A stretch of 64,000 nucleotides of DNA from Cyanobacteria bacterium FACHB-471 (lineage in GTDB: Bacteria > Cyanobacteriota > Cyanobacteriia > Elainellales > Elainellaceae): the NCBI GenBank assembly GCA_014695345.1, contig JACJOC010000058.1, forward strand, positions 1 through 64,000, given 5' to 3'. Shown in pieces: positions 796 to 48,703 of the stretch; within the stretch, counting starts at the first letter, position 1, and each line of letters starts with the position of its first letter. The position numbers and the translations under genes are program-made. The notes beneath the pieces were generated by a model that saw only the letters and a list, made by a program, of their open reading frames with translations, ran no database searches and was not told the origin of the DNA.

Positions 796-863
796 TACTG
801 CTGAAATATCTCGTAGAGCAAGTAGGTGACTTAACTAAACGTCAAAAAAGTGCGGGTTGGGTA

Positions 864-2600
864 TTACTCCAATGGCAATTTCACAGTTACAGTTGTTCCC
901 TGTCCTTCCTCACTCTCGATCGCCCATTCTCCCCGGTGCAATTCAACACAGGTTTTCACTACTGCTAAACCTAATCCTGTACCAGCAACATCACCTACGT
1001 TGCTGCCACGAGAGAAGGCTTCTTGAATTTGGGCTTGCTCTGCAACTGGAATACCAATACCGCGATCGCAAATTTCTACGATTGCGGTTTGGTGATCACA
1101 ACGCAAAATCATCTGCACGGACAGATTGTTAGGGGAATACTTAGCGGCATTAAAAAGCAAGTTAGTGAGTAGCGATCGCACCAGTTTCTTATCCCAGAAT
1201 GCCTTCATGTTTTGACAATGGCTAGTCAAGCTAACGCGTTGATGGATACTATCTTCTAGTTCCTCAAGAACTTGCTGACAAAAAGGTTCTACTTCTAATA
1301 GCTCTGGGTTAAACTCCAGTTTGCCGACTTCTGCCCGCGTTAACGTCAACAAATCCGTAATCTGTTGACTCATTCGTTTTGCAGTGAGATAAATACGCTG
1401 AATGTTGTTTTGTTTTTGAGCTTCGGACAATTCGTCGCGGTTCAGTTGTAACGACTCTGCCGACAGCAGAATGGTGCTGAGCGGCGTGCGAAGTTCATGC
1501 GATGCCATTGAAAAAAACCGCAGTTTCAGGTTGTTTAACATCTTTTCCTGAGTCAACTCACGATTTAAGTTACTCAAAAAAAGCACTAGGCTGGCAGTCA
1601 GCACCAGTCCCACAAAAAGGGTGGTAGGTGCGCCATAGTTCAGATTAAACGGATAATTACCAGATGGTGAAAAGATGACTTGCCATTGGCGTTGTCCGAC
1701 CGTGAGGGTACGGCTACAGTGAGTGGCTGTGGAGCATAGAGAGTGGGATGGGCGATCGCGCTCATTGGTCATCACCTGCTGAACAACGGCATCATATCGT
1801 CTCAAAAACCGCTGGTCGGCACTAGCATTCTGGTCATATAAAACAAAGTCAATTTCGTATCCCAAATCCTGGAGTGATTCTTCAACCACATTTGAGACTC
1901 GAAAAACACCGAGCAAAAATCCTTCAAACTGCTCAGGTCGGCTGGATACAGCAGGAAGTGTAACCGTTTGATATAACGGCAAAAAGACCAGAAAACCAAA
2001 CTGATCGCGTTGTTCTTGCACCAAACGGATACGTCCCGTTGCCGTAATCTTTCCCTGATCTCTGGCAAACTCTATAGCAACAGCACGAGCCGGATTAGAG
2101 TTCAAATCAAACCCAAATGCGGCTTCATTATTGGCGAACGGAACAACATAAGTAACGGGAATGTAATAGGGGCGATCGCCTGCTCTAACGAGCCGATTGT
2201 CACTCGTCAACTCAGTAATTTGAAAGTTTGGATAGCCTTCTGCCTGGATCGCTTGTTCAAAAGCTAAACGATCTGCCTGCTGCACCAAGGGTGCCCACTC
2301 TAGCGCCTGAATGCCAGGATACGTGTTGAGCGATCGCGCCACATAGTCAGAAAACTCTTGCCGCTCAACTTGCCCTTGAGTGACAACATAGTAATCTCCC
2401 AAAAACGCCAGCACATCGGTATAGCGATTCAGACTCCGCTGCAAGGCTGTTGCCAAACTCTCGATCTGTCTTTGAAACCGAGTTTGCTGGTTAGAAACTT
2501 CCCACCGCCCCACAAATAAAGCCGCGAGGATAGATAAACCTACCCCTACTCCTAGCGTCAGTCTTAAAACAACGGGGTGACTGACAGAAAGCTTAGCCAT
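864..2600 (-). CDS. CHASE-domain sensor histidine kinase
   Basis: This is a 578-residue membrane histidine kinase. Residues about 10-31 form the first membrane segment. The following extracytoplasmic region contains a CHASE sensor domain (ALEWAPLV near residue 85), which in known members binds small ligands. A second membrane segment lies near residues 320-345. The dimerisation/phosphorylation helix has SMASHELRTPLS with the phospho-accepting His near residue 369. The ATPase domain follows, with an N box, CDRGIGIP and GTGLGLAVV, ending in KLPLE. There is no PAS or receiver domain and no response regulator next to it, so the partner is not evident. The neighbours are unrelated. The ligand cannot be told from the sequence. 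Confidence 0.93.
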   Translation of the reverse strand: MAKLSVSHPVVLRLTLGVGVGLSILAALFVGRWEVSNQQTRFQRQIESLATALQRSLNRYTDVLAFLGDYYVVTQGQVERQEFSDYVARSLNTYPGIQALEWAPLVQQADRLAFEQAIQAEGYPNFQITELTSDNRLVRAGDRPYYIPVTYVVPFANNEAAFGFDLNSNPARAVAIEFARDQGKITATGRIRLVQEQRDQFGFLVFLPLYQTVTLPAVSSRPEQFEGFLLGVFRVSNVVEESLQDLGYEIDFVLYDQNASADQRFLRRYDAVVQQVMTNERDRPSHSLCSTATHCSRTLTVGQRQWQVIFSPSGNYPFNLNYGAPTTLFVGLVLTASLVLFLSNLNRELTQEKMLNNLKLRFFSMASHELRTPLSTILLSAESLQLNRDELSEAQKQNNIQRIYLTAKRMSQQITDLLTLTRAEVGKLEFNPELLEVEPFCQQVLEELEDSIHQRVSLTSHCQNMKAFWDKKLVRSLLTNLLFNAAKYSPNNLSVQMILRCDHQTAIVEICDRGIGIPVAEQAQIQEAFSRGSNVGDVAGTGLGLAVVKTCVELHRGEWAIESEEGQGTTVTVKLPLE

Positions 2601-45414: not shown

Positions 45415-46212
45415 ATGGGATTAGTTCTAGATTGCATGGATGCTCTGCGCGATCGCGGCCAGTGTGCGCTGATTCCCTTTATCACAGCGGGTGATCCTAA
45501 CTTAGAAACAACAGCAGAAGCGCTCAAGACCCTTGATCGCAGTGGTGCTGACCTGATCGAGCTGGGAATTCCTTACTCTGACCCACTCGCTGATGGTCCA
45601 GTCATTCAGGCAGCAGCGACCCGTGCGCTTCAGCAGGGAACCCGTCTGGAGCAAGTACTAGACGTAGTCCGGCAAGTTAGCCCTGAACTAAAAGCTCCGA
45701 TCATCTTGTTCACCTACTACAATCCCATTCTGAACCGGGGAATTGAGGCATTTTTGCAGCAGATTGCTGAGGCGGGTGCACGAGGGTTAGTGGTTCCCGA
45801 TTTGCCGTTAGAGGAAGTAGAAGGGTTGCTCAAGCCAGCGGCGGCAGCAGGGATTGACGTGACGCTGTTAGTGGCCCCGACTAGCCCAAAAGAACGAATC
45901 GAGGCGATCGCCACTCAATCTCAAGGCTTCATTTACCTAGTCAGCGTAACGGGTGTGACCGGAATTCGCTCTCAGGTCGAAACGCGAGTACAAGATTTGC
46001 TGCTAGATCTGCGGAACGTTACTGATAAGCCAATTGGGGTCGGTTTTGGCATCTCGCAACCGGAACAGGCTCGTCAGGTAAGAGAATGGGGCGCAGATGC
46101 AGTGATTGTCGGTAGTGCATTCGTGAAGCGACTGGCAGAAGGCACGCCTGCTCAAGGATTGAAGGCGATCGAATCATTTTGCCGTAGCTTAAAGATCGCC
46201 ATCAGTCAGTAA
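45415..46212 (+). CDS. trpA: tryptophan synthase alpha subunit
   Basis: The protein has 265 residues. It cleaves indole-3-glycerol phosphate to indole, which is channelled to the beta subunit. [13 protein letters not shown] (about 21-33) and [19 protein letters not shown] are hallmark motifs. Catalytic Glu49 and Asp60 fall exactly at the usual positions. [14 protein letters not shown] and [20 protein letters not shown] complete the TIM barrel. The start ATG 45415 has AAGG nearby. It is the last gene of the ndhL block. trpB and other trp genes are not in the window, as is usual for scattered cyanobacterial trp genes. Confidence 0.97.
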
Positions 46213-46784: not shown

Positions 46785-47645
46785 TTAAACGAGTGAAAGC
46801 CGGGGCAAATTTCCGGCTTTCATAGGAATCGAGCGTCCTACAGCAGCAGCAACAGGTCTGAGACTTTGAACCAGGCTCACCATGTCATCGAGAGAAAGGG
46901 CTTGACGAGCATCAGAGACAGATTTTTCGGGTTCAGGGTGACACTCGACCATAATGCCGTCTGCCCCACAGGCAACAGCGGCTCTGGCAAGGTCGGCAAC
47001 TAATTCGCGTTTGCCTGCGGCATGACTGGGATCAACAATTACAGGCAAGTGAGTAATTTGCTTCAGGGCAACAACTGCTCCTAGGTCAAGCACGTTTCGG
47101 GTATAGGGGTCGAAGCTGCGAATGCCGCGCTCGCACAGGATGACGTTTGGGTTGCCGTGGCTGAGAATATATTCTGCGGCCATGACGAATTCTTCGATCG
47201 TGGCAGCTAGTCCACGCTTGAGGACGATGGGTTTGTCTACTTCACCAACGGCTTTGAGCAGGTCGAAGTTTTGCATATTGCGGCTGCCGATTTGTAGCGC
47301 ATCGGCGTGGGTGGCGATCGCCTCAATCTGCGAGATTGCCATCACCTCAGTAATTACAGGTAGTCCAGAGCGATCGCGAACAGATGCCAAAATTTCTAAC
47401 CCCTCTTGCCCCATTCCCTGGAATGCGTAAGGTGAAGTGCGAGGCTTGAATACACCGCCCCTGATTGCCTGAACAGGAGCTGTGACAAGGCGGCTGCCGA
47501 CTTCCTCCATTTGAGCCTGACTTTCGACCGAGCAAGGGCCGCCTACAATCAGCAAATCTTGTCCTCCGACTGCAATTTGTTCTGAAAGCTGAACGACGGT
47601 TTTATGGCTGGGATTAGCTTTAGCAGCGAGTTTAGCGTTTTGCAC
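46785..47645 (-). CDS. aroF: DAHP synthase (3-deoxy-7-phosphoheptulonate synthase)
   Basis: This 286-residue protein catalyses the first step of the shikimate pathway, joining PEP and erythrose 4-phosphate. LLIVGGPCSVESQAQMEEVG (about residues 32-51), GGVFKPRTSPYAFQGMG, LKRGLAATIEEFVMAAEYIL, CERGIRSFDPYTRNVLD and LPVIVDPSHAAGKRELV are the type I-beta (AroF/Bacillus-like) motifs. They include the metal-binding Cys of GGPCS and the His of DPSHA. There is no chorismate mutase or ACT extension, so allosteric control by such a domain is unlikely. The GTG start at 47645 has AAGGAG six bases before it. A leader with an aromatic-rich peptide and a terminator lies directly upstream, so control is probably by attenuation. 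Confidence 0.96.
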   Translation of the reverse strand: MQNAKLAAKANPSHKTVVQLSEQIAVGGQDLLIVGGPCSVESQAQMEEVGSRLVTAPVQAIRGGVFKPRTSPYAFQGMGQEGLEILASVRDRSGLPVITEVMAISQIEAIATHADALQIGSRNMQNFDLLKAVGEVDKPIVLKRGLAATIEEFVMAAEYILSHGNPNVILCERGIRSFDPYTRNVLDLGAVVALKQITHLPVIVDPSHAAGKRELVADLARAAVACGADGIMVECHPEPEKSVSDARQALSLDDMVSLVQSLRPVAAAVGRSIPMKAGNLPRLSLV

Positions 47646-47757
47646 TGGAGACTCCTTTAAAAAGAACGTAGTGGTGTGAACAAGGTGTGAATTGCGAGAA
47701 ATCGAACTGTGAGAGATTGAACTGTGAGAAACTCAACTGAGAAAAATCCAAGCCATT

Positions 47758-47789
47758 AAAAAACCCGGAACCGCCTGAAGTCCCGGGTT
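47758..47789 (-). terminator. intrinsic terminator of the aroF attenuator
   Basis: On the minus strand AACCCGG (47789-47783) pairs with CCGGGTT (47768-47762). GAC/GTT pairs can extend the stem to about ten base pairs, and a run of six T (47763-47758) overlaps and follows it. It lies 23 bases after the leader-peptide stop and about 110 bases before the aroF GTG. Its 5' arm ACCCGGG (47788-47782) is complementary to CCCGGGT at 47820-47814, the stop region of the leader, giving an alternative antiterminator. Confidence 0.85.
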
Positions 47790-47811
47790 GGTAGAAGATT
47801 GCATGACCATC

Positions 47812-47880
47812 TCACCCGGGTATTTCCCTGGACCAAAAAAAGTAAAAGCCGTAAAACCAGCTATTGAGATAGGTCAGCAT
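47812..47880 (-). CDS. aromatic-rich leader peptide of aroF (22 residues)
   Basis: The frame starts at ATG 47880 with AGGAAG five bases upstream (47891-47886) and stops at TGA 47814-47812. It encodes MLTYLNSW, then FYGFYFFW, then SREIPG. Nine of 22 residues are aromatic (Tyr4, Trp8, Phe9, Tyr10, Phe12, Tyr13, Phe14, Phe15, Trp16). The terminator 23 bases downstream and the CCCGGGT segment overlapping its last codons make it a classic attenuation leader. A ribosome stalled at the aromatic codons (47859-47833) would leave CCCGGGT free to break the terminator. One finishing at the stop would cover it. The layout is seen; the control is inferred. Confidence 0.85.
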   Translation of the reverse strand: MLTYLNSWFYGFYFFWSREIPG

Positions 47881-47926
47881 TTTTACTTCCTGAATGAATG
47901 GCTCGGAAAACAAACTCTGAAAAAGC

Positions 47927-47999
47927 AAAAAACCGCAGATTGTAGTCTGCGGTTCACCAGAGGTTCCATGCAAAGCTGGACTCACCCCAGGTGAACCTC
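47927..47999 (-). ncRNA. structured leader or small RNA ending in an intrinsic terminator
   Basis: On the minus strand AACCGCAGA (47954-47946) pairs with TCTGCGGTT (47939-47931) around CTACAA and runs into six T (47932-47927), an intrinsic terminator. Upstream, GGTTCACC (47997-47990) is fully complementary to GGTGAACC (47958-47951), which shares AACC with the terminator arm. The overlapping GAGGTT (47999-47994) is instead complementary to AACCTC (47965-47960). The pairings exclude one another, as in a riboswitch or attenuator. It could also be an independent small RNA. It lies 50 bases upstream of the leader peptide. Confidence 0.6.
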
Positions 48000-48298
48000 C
48001 ATAAACCAAAAATAAAAGTAAGAAGTTGAGTAAATCATGGCTGTTGCAGCGGTTTTTTGCTAATTTCCAACTGTCTTTCAACCGTAGCAGGCAAAACCTG
48101 AACGAGTCAAGAGTCCTTTCGGGTGATTTACGAATTCATTCCGCTTTAGGGAAAAACTCCATCAGAGTTAAAAAGTTTGGTGGTTTCGGTCATTAAGGCT
48201 ATTTCAGCTCTTAGAGAGGGGGTTCCAAAAGGGTAATAGTTTTTTGTTGGGCGGGCTAAATCTGCACAACAAAAAATTATTACCTAAATGCCACTACC

Positions 48299-48703
48299 TT
48301 AGAGATACTCACGGAGGAAATCGAAGGGATCATCCTCCCAACAAAGTTCAGGACTCATCCATTCCAGATTACGGAGAACATCGGCTTGAACTTCTTCTAT
48401 TTCTTCATGCTCAAACAATTCCTCTAGCGCCTCTAAATCTCTTCCTCTTAGAGCTGTTGAGGGCGAAGAGCCTCTGAGAGAACCTTGATGCGACTGAGGC
48501 TGATCTAGGTCAACCGGATCAATCGCCCAATCTGCTAATCGCGTATCAGGTTGAGTAGGAGCAGCGGCTAAGGGGTGAGGCGATCGCCCAATCTTTTTCT
48601 GCAACGATGCCTTGGAGTTATATTCAGGCAACTTCGTCAGAGACGAATTGCTGTTAGGGTCAGACGAAGTGACAAACATCAAATTTAAGTACCAGTCATA
48701 CAA
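48299..48703 (-). CDS. small acidic hypothetical protein
   Basis: The protein has 134 residues. The first 85 residues are low-complexity, rich in Ser, Pro, Gln and Asp. The C-terminal part is acidic and helical: LEALEELFEHEEIEEVQADV and LRNLEWMSPELCWEDDPFDF. Met9 (48679) is an alternative start. The acidic tail suggests protein binding, but no domain is recognised. It lies between the aroF leader and glmU on the same strand, and may be expressed on its own. Confidence 0.5.
   Translation of the reverse strand: MYDWYLNLMFVTSSDPNSNSSLTKLPEYNSKASLQKKIGRSPHPLAAAPTQPDTRLADWAIDPVDLDQPQSHQGSLRGSSPSTALRGRDLEALEELFEHEEIEEVQADVLRNLEWMSPELCWEDDPFDFLREYL

Follow-up and report, generated by a model that had tools for sequence, protein, structure and literature searches.

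Classical attenuation is best known from proteobacteria and actinobacteria. For a DAHP synthase gene, ribosome-mediated attenuation has been described in C. glutamicum, where the leader aroR, which codes for Phe-Tyr-Phe, is located in front of the gene (Neshat et al. 2014, as reported in the excerpts available of PMC11802643 and PMC4046766). According to the same excerpts, transcription of aroR-aroF is increased under Phe limitation, and supply of Tyr is without effect. Judged by this example, mixed aromatic codons in the leader of a DAHP synthase gene are not unprecedented. Tandem leader attenuators are represented by mgtM and mgtP of Salmonella mgtCBR, which respond additively to ATP and proline and were called a singular example; the excerpt describes their stem-loops as unlike intrinsic terminators (PMC3641672). 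A third related element is the uORFC-13-1 motif of Acholeplasma, located upstream of aroF, in which a U-run uORF coding for at least one Phe adjoins a terminator stem; in the part of the source available, the motif comprises 24 unique sequences from one genus and environmental DNA (PMC8632094). A web database of predicted attenuators is also mentioned in an excerpt of PMC1173090. In the literature searched, whose coverage was partial and by which absence from print is not established, no described cyanobacterial example was found. In this report, we describe the leader region of aroF in Cyanobacteria bacterium FACHB-471, contained in a stretch of 64,000 nt which was analysed as a whole and is designated the window, and we compare it with orthologous loci of other cyanobacteria. 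Positions are those of the window, and the features of the leader region are located on its minus strand (-).

Organisation of the aroF leader region

The gene aroF (46785..47645, -) codes for a DAHP synthase of 286 aa (PF00793, E 2.1e-79; TIGR01361, E 1.7e-107). In the module adjoining it, leader ORF 2 (MLTYLNSWFYGFYFFWSREIPG; 47812..47880, -) is a conserved frame of 22 codons with 9 aromatic residues, which by direct reading of the sequence starts with the ATG at 47880 and ends with a TGA at 47812. Codons 8-16 (47833..47859, -) constitute the aromatic block Trp Phe Tyr Gly Phe Tyr Phe Phe Trp. Antiterminator hairpin 2 (47782..47820, -), which is backed by arm-swap permutations and covariation (see below), has the 5' arm CCCGGGT (47820-47814), composed of the last codons and the first base of the stop, and the 3' arm ACCCGGG (47788-47782), which is located within the 5' strand of the subsequent terminator. 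This intrinsic terminator 2 (47758..47789, -) lies 22 bases 3' of the leader 2 stop and consists of a stem (47789-47762) and six T (47763-47758). A preliminary description of the locus had claimed the 22-codon frame with nine aromatics, eight of them in residues 8-16, the terminator with six T, the complementarity of CCCGGGT and ACCCGGG and a DAHP synthase as the next gene, all of which are borne out. Its interpretation as a ribosome-mediated attenuator that reads the aromatic supply is supported as the best explanation, with the correction that there is a tandem of two attenuators and not one.

The attenuator missed at that time is located directly upstream of the leader 2 module (48038-47920, -) and is likewise complete, with a leader, an antiterminator and a terminator. 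Leader ORF 1 (MIYSTSYFYFWFMEVHLG; 47982..48038, -) has 7 aromatics among 18 residues, and its codons 7-12 (48003..48020, -) form the aromatic block Tyr Phe Tyr Phe Trp Phe. Antiterminator hairpin 1 (47951..47997, -), for which arm-swap permutations, covariation and folding speak, is composed of the 5' arm GGTTCACC (47997-47990), located inside the last codons of leader 1, and the complementary 3' arm GGTGAACC (47958-47951); the latter reaches into the base of terminator 1. Intrinsic terminator 1 (47920..47955, -) has a stem with the strands GAACCGCAGA-loop-TCTGCGGTTT (47955-47930) and a T-rich tail. In RNA letters, the arm pairs of the two antiterminators are GGUUCACC:GGUGAACC and CCGGGU:ACCCGG. 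Terminator-like sites numbered 4 in the window vs 1.0 in shuffles.

Distribution among cyanobacteria

Orthologous loci were collected from genomes of the same order, from named relatives including Nostoc, Anabaena, Brasilonema, Microcoleus and Oculatella (the best 80 of 310) and from 194 genomes drawn from the class, which yielded 160 loci with 136 distinct upstream regions. Three of these (L091, L097, L103) were left out as too short upstream, and 130 of the remaining 133 have both leaders. An alignment of cyanobacterial aroF upstream regions, proposed in the preliminary description as a check for a short Phe/Tyr/Trp-rich frame followed by a terminator, thus came out strongly in favour of its claim. 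The figure of 130 is made up of 120 loci recognised by an automatic pattern (120/136; an earlier, too strict version found both leaders in 86/136) and 10 loci whose leaders were placed by hand. Within the same order, a DAHP synthase match, either orthologue or paralogue, was present in 33 of 36 genomes, and all 30 orthologous loci retrieved had both leaders. The exceptions are L076, which is without leader 1, and L160 and L161, which share one family label and are without leader 2; the most divergent locus among those counted is L157. The start codon is ambiguous in a few leaders (e.g. L036-L038 and L067). At the place in L076 where leader 1 is absent (about -400 to -350 before aroF), short tandem repeats of the GGTGATGG type were observed.

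Both peptides are conserved in composition and in geometry. Before the additions by hand, Phe, Tyr and Trp were all present in 121 of 124 leader-1 and 125 of 129 leader-2 peptides. Counted from the stop in 130 peptides each, residues -12 to -7 of leader 1 are aromatic in 82-98%, and residues -14 to -12 and -10 to -7 of leader 2 in 84-98%, with Gly at residue -11 of leader 2 in 74/130; the last residue of the aromatic block is -7 in either leader. Of the 130 loci, 72% have at least two frames with at least 6 aromatics in 9 residues, vs 1 of 1300 dinucleotide shuffles (0.08%; 450-nt upstream regions), and with at least 5 aromatics in 9 the values are 91% vs 1.6% of 1300 such shuffles. The paired aromatic frames are not due to chance. 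Downstream of either leader, a terminator was detected in 129 of 130 loci, a count made without a shuffle control, with median energies of -17.2 (leader 1) and -17.5 kcal/mol (leader 2) and T-runs at a median distance of 55 and 53 nt past the stop, respectively. Changes of aromatic codons between similar loci were mostly non-synonymous (leader 1, 209 synonymous vs 1115; leader 2, 275 vs 334); such counts were unhelpful as support for the aromatic codons, since non-synonymous changes prevail in both leaders.

Covariance models of the leader 1 (R1) and leader 2 (R2) modules were run over the 194 class genomes. Strong matches (E < 1e-5) were obtained in 71 genomes for R1 and 69 for R2, with 67 in common and 12 family labels represented; they are partly given by construction, because many of the 194 genomes supplied model sequences. 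In 67 of 69 genomes with a near-full-length aroF orthologue, R1 matched just upstream on the same contig and strand, and in the remaining two (G089 and G173) a divergent leader 1 is readable by eye (L157 and L145). Four genomes with a strong R1 match are without a near-full-length aroF: the gene runs off the retrieved stretch in G013 and is a broken remnant in G139, the contig ends just past leader 2 in G149, and the aroF match stops at the contig edge in G091. The filters of the 194-genome search were strict and few candidates were scored per genome, so that weak matches before other genes could escape. In G139, leader 1 stands before the broken aroF remnant without a leader 2 (L184, G139:C48), which reads as a decaying copy; the best DAHP synthase match of this genome (E 3.1e-83) is in the paralogue range. 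A second R1 match in the FACHB-471 genome (L186) was rejected because of its position within a coding frame. Leader 2 of this genome was not among the matches of R1, and the notion of leaders 1 and 2 as recognisable sequence duplicates is unsupported.

A search with Rfam release 15 (4227 models) yielded no match at gathering score for the leader region of the window, and a permissive search of 47600-48300 gave six sub-threshold matches only, one of which is located over terminator 1 on the opposite strand. The sole Rfam match in 15 related loci was a HEARO RNA (RF02033) at positions 801-1033 (-) of L121, upstream of the leader region of Microseira wollei aroF.

Mutually exclusive helices

In each module, the 3' arm of the antiterminator shares bases with the terminator, and the two helices are mutually exclusive. 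The leader ends pair better with the terminator 5' strand of their own locus than with those of other loci (n=129 each), the energies being -18.9 vs -16.9 kcal/mol for leader 1 and -17.1 vs -15.3 kcal/mol for leader 2, and 0 of 2000 arm-swap permutations were as good for either leader. Pairing of the ORF start with its own terminator 5' strand is far weaker (-6.2 kcal/mol for leader 1 and -5.4 kcal/mol for leader 2).

Covariation was evaluated after removal of identical sequences in two alignments, A3 and A4, with 118 and 126, respectively, of the 129 terminator-bearing loci per leader. The counted structures were drawn from one aligned sequence (L042) and are by this favoured over slid controls, and kinship among the loci inflates the contrasts with shuffles. 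Cells changed on both sides numbered 97 vs 32.7 in shuffles for antiterminator 1 (84.6% of cells paired), 27 vs 2.4 for terminator 1 (98.2% paired), 108 vs 54.8 for antiterminator 2 (95.0% paired in the outer helix) and 81 vs 19.2 for terminator 2 (93.6% paired). For antiterminator 2, two of five covariation measures were not above shuffles (307/500 and 323/500 as high), and for terminator 2 two measures were only modestly so (39/500 and 37/500 as high). Compensated arm pairs in A3 are GGTTCACC:GGTGAACC, GGCTCACC:GGTGAGCC, GGTTCACT:AGTGAACC and GTTCGCC:GGCGAAC. By these comparative counts, the antiterminator and terminator helices of both leaders covary, those of leader 2 less clearly. The folding energies of the window's own segments are -26.4 (antiterminator 1), -16.1 (antiterminator 2), -15.9 (terminator 1) and -17.3 kcal/mol (terminator 2). 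RNAalifold on whole segments was dropped, as the signal was too weak; the consensus energies of the antiterminator segments were -3.0 and -0.7 kcal/mol.

Putative transcription and translation signals of the leader region

A putative -35 box, TTGACT (48105..48110, -), and a putative -10 box, TACGGT (48081..48086, -), with a weak match to the consensus, are separated by a spacer of 18, the -10 box being located 42 nt before the leader-1 ATG. A strict sigma-70 scan of 47600-48350 gave no promoter. Among the 130 loci, 129 have a TTGAC in the 170 nt before the leader-1 ATG (mononucleotide shuffles, 17.5% expected) and 5 have one between the leaders, the latter stretch being shorter than 170 nt and the two rates not length-matched; the gap between T-run 1 and ATG 2 is at most 45 nt in 80 loci. 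A single promoter is likely located upstream of leader 1. Because TTGAC is found before leader 1 in nearly all loci and between the leaders in so few, its distribution suggests a single transcript carrying the two attenuators in series. Further upstream, between the neighbouring gene and the aroF promoter region, a near-perfect AT-rich inverted repeat (48230-48286) was observed, which is perhaps a bidirectional terminator and draws sub-threshold matches to miRNA models.

For leader 2, the good order of a Shine-Dalgarno sequence and start codon described previously stands in the window, where AGGAAG (47891-47886, -) is located ahead of the ATG; this core is not conserved among the loci. Shine-Dalgarno-like cores were found before leader 1 in 4/130 loci, before leader 2 in 14/130 (about 7 expected from shuffles) and before aroF in 98/130. 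Translation of the leaders, if it takes place as we assume, would not depend on a conserved Shine-Dalgarno sequence.

Predicted influence of the ribosome on folding

The influence of a ribosome on the two terminators was calculated for 129 loci per leader as the equilibrium folding of the ribosome-free RNA only. For leader 1, A-site positions -12 to -9 give mean terminator probabilities of 0.39 to 0.22, and the value increases from 0.22 at -9 to 0.48 at -8, 0.83 at -7 and 0.86 at the stop; the terminator is favoured (P > 0.5) in 86% of loci with the A site at -8 and -7. For leader 2, the mean ranges between 0.54 and 0.79 for A-site positions -14 to -7 (0.54 at -12) and reaches 0.96 at the stop, and the terminator is favoured (P > 0.5) in 57-82% of loci at -14 to -7. 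Under four footprint assumptions, aromatic codons remain below the stop in terminator probability. According to the model, a ribosome positioned at the aromatic codons would weaken the terminators, with strong relief in leader 1 (-12 to -9) and partial relief in leader 2. Since an antiterminator can form before the 3' strand of the terminator exists, the co-transcriptional order would allow more read-through than the equilibrium. The terminator probability for Trp in leader 1 varies from 0.42 to 0.79 with the assumed footprint, which suggests that under some footprints Trp would be sensed less well by leader 1.

The leader-bearing enzyme and other aromatic genes

The FACHB-471 genome has two matches to DAHP synthases of the aroF type. 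The leader-bearing AroF also matches NeuB (PF03102), and in a domain search the ferredoxin-like domain PF18152 was absent from it; the paralogue on contig C114 has this domain. In other bacteria, the ferredoxin-like domain of DAHP synthases is regulatory. We presume that the AroF isozyme without it is regulated by transcript attenuation in place of allosteric control. The upstream region of the paralogue in the same genome (L002, 55% identical) has no leaders, and among 22 paralogue upstream regions an aromatic frame was found in none at a threshold of at least 6 aromatics in 9 residues and in one (L166) at a threshold of at least 5. In L166, a single aromatic leader (MKNSQFWYSFTFRSATGVRHRSG) is located at -440 to -368 before a DAHP synthase of the paralogue type and is followed by a terminator-like GC-rich inverted repeat and a T-run; it is possibly an independent attenuator.

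No aromatic leader was found upstream of pheA, tyrA or the trpE match that scored best in this genome. L190 and L191, two weaker trpE-like matches that fall short of the family cut-off, are each preceded by one aromatic frame. The gene trpA (45415-46212, +) is located downstream of aroF on the opposite strand, so that the two are near neighbours without sharing a strand. Beyond it, a group I intron (RF00028; 43730-44053, -) was found whose 5' exon (about 44079-44042) reads as the 5' half of a tRNA-Leu; ARAGORN called no tRNA at this site, which would be expected if the gene is split.

Proposed mechanism and alternative explanations

Taken together, aroF is very probably under the control of a pair of ribosome-mediated transcription attenuators that act in series on a single transcript. 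With an ample supply of charged tRNA-Phe, tRNA-Tyr and tRNA-Trp, the ribosome would reach the leader stop and cover the 5' arm of the antiterminator (leader 1, positions -13 to -6 relative to the stop; leader 2, positions -6 to 0). With the antiterminator blocked, the intrinsic terminator would form and RNA polymerase would stop. Under shortage of one of these charged tRNAs, the ribosome would stall in the aromatic block, which ends seven codons before the stop, and leave the arm free to pair with the 5' strand of the terminator, so that the polymerase would read through. As two such gates lie ahead of aroF, the read-through probabilities should multiply. The probable benefit is that the enzyme would be made only when phenylalanine, tyrosine or tryptophan is scarce.

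The serial arrangement presupposes that leader 1 belongs to the aroF transcript. Instead, leader 2 alone might attenuate aroF from a promoter of its own between the modules, and leader 1 with its terminator would then be an independent gene for a small RNA or peptide. In favour of such a gene are the completeness of intrinsic terminator 1, the retention of leader 2 alone in L076 and the length of the spacer between stop 1 and start 2, which is up to 194 nt among 120 loci. This explanation is nevertheless unlikely in view of the occurrence of TTGAC before leader 1 in 129/130 loci and between the leaders in 5 (rates not length-matched), the gap of at most 45 nt from T-run 1 to ATG 2 in 80/130 and the loci L160 and L161 (one family label), which keep leader 1 alone before aroF.

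Two further alternatives accept the leaders as they are and change what they do. Trans activities of trp leader products are known in rhizobia, and by this precedent the terminated leader RNAs or peptides, the RNAs being expected in replete cells, could have their main role in trans, either as small RNAs that act by base-pairing or as small proteins, attenuation being a secondary function; conservation is, however, concentrated in the mutually exclusive cis helices and in the position before aroF, and we consider such a main role the least probable of the alternatives. Scarcely more credible is an arrest by the nascent peptide of the TnaC or Erm type, in which the signal would be a free aromatic compound bound in the ribosome tunnel and not the charging of tRNA. 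Conservation does go beyond the aromatic residues, leader 1 having for instance Val-His close to its end and leader 2 finishing with Ser-Gly, yet these residues are explained by RNA pairing because they are encoded in the antiterminator arms (GGTTCAC and TCCGGGT), and Phe, Tyr and Trp interchange within the block.

Beyond the serial attenuation of aroF as such, a wider interpretation appears to us evenly balanced between right and wrong. It holds that a serial double attenuator, possibly the first ribosome-mediated one described in cyanobacteria, is widespread in this group, that it combines mixed aromatic codons with multiplied read-through, leader 1 being perhaps tuned to Phe and Tyr and leader 2 to all three amino acids, and that it steeply regulates the one of two paralogous DAHP synthases which lacks the ferredoxin-like domain.

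Significance and comparison with known systems

The locus would place classical attenuation in photosynthetic bacteria at the entry of the shikimate pathway. It suggests that two DAHP synthases divide their labour, one having an additional ferredoxin-like domain and the other being apparently under transcript attenuation. The tandem offers a natural test of serial attenuators with respect to dynamic range and signal integration, and its conserved parts could serve the engineering of aromatic production in cyanobacteria.

The mechanism belongs to the class of classical attenuation, and among the systems covered by the sources available its nearest known case is C. glutamicum aroR-aroF, with which it shares a short aromatic leader ahead of a DAHP synthase gene. 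In contrast to the single Phe-Tyr-Phe leader of this actinobacterium, the cyanobacterial leaders occur in tandem, contain blocks of Phe, Tyr and Trp and extend over 12 family labels. With the enterobacterial leaders trpL, pheL and pheST (in part after excerpts of PMC11802643), they have in common a leader rich in the end product, a terminator and a competing antiterminator; unlike these, which are devoted to one amino acid each, they mix Phe, Tyr and Trp, are paired and stand before the common first step. The uORFC-13-1 motif likewise has a uORF beside a terminator stem upstream of aroF, whereas neither a tandem nor a Tyr/Trp block is mentioned for it in the available part of PMC8632094. Salmonella mgtM/mgtP, as far as the excerpt of PMC3641672 describes it, likewise has two short ORFs and two attenuators in one leader; the cyanobacterial tandem differs from it in that each module has an intrinsic terminator and both share the same class of codons.
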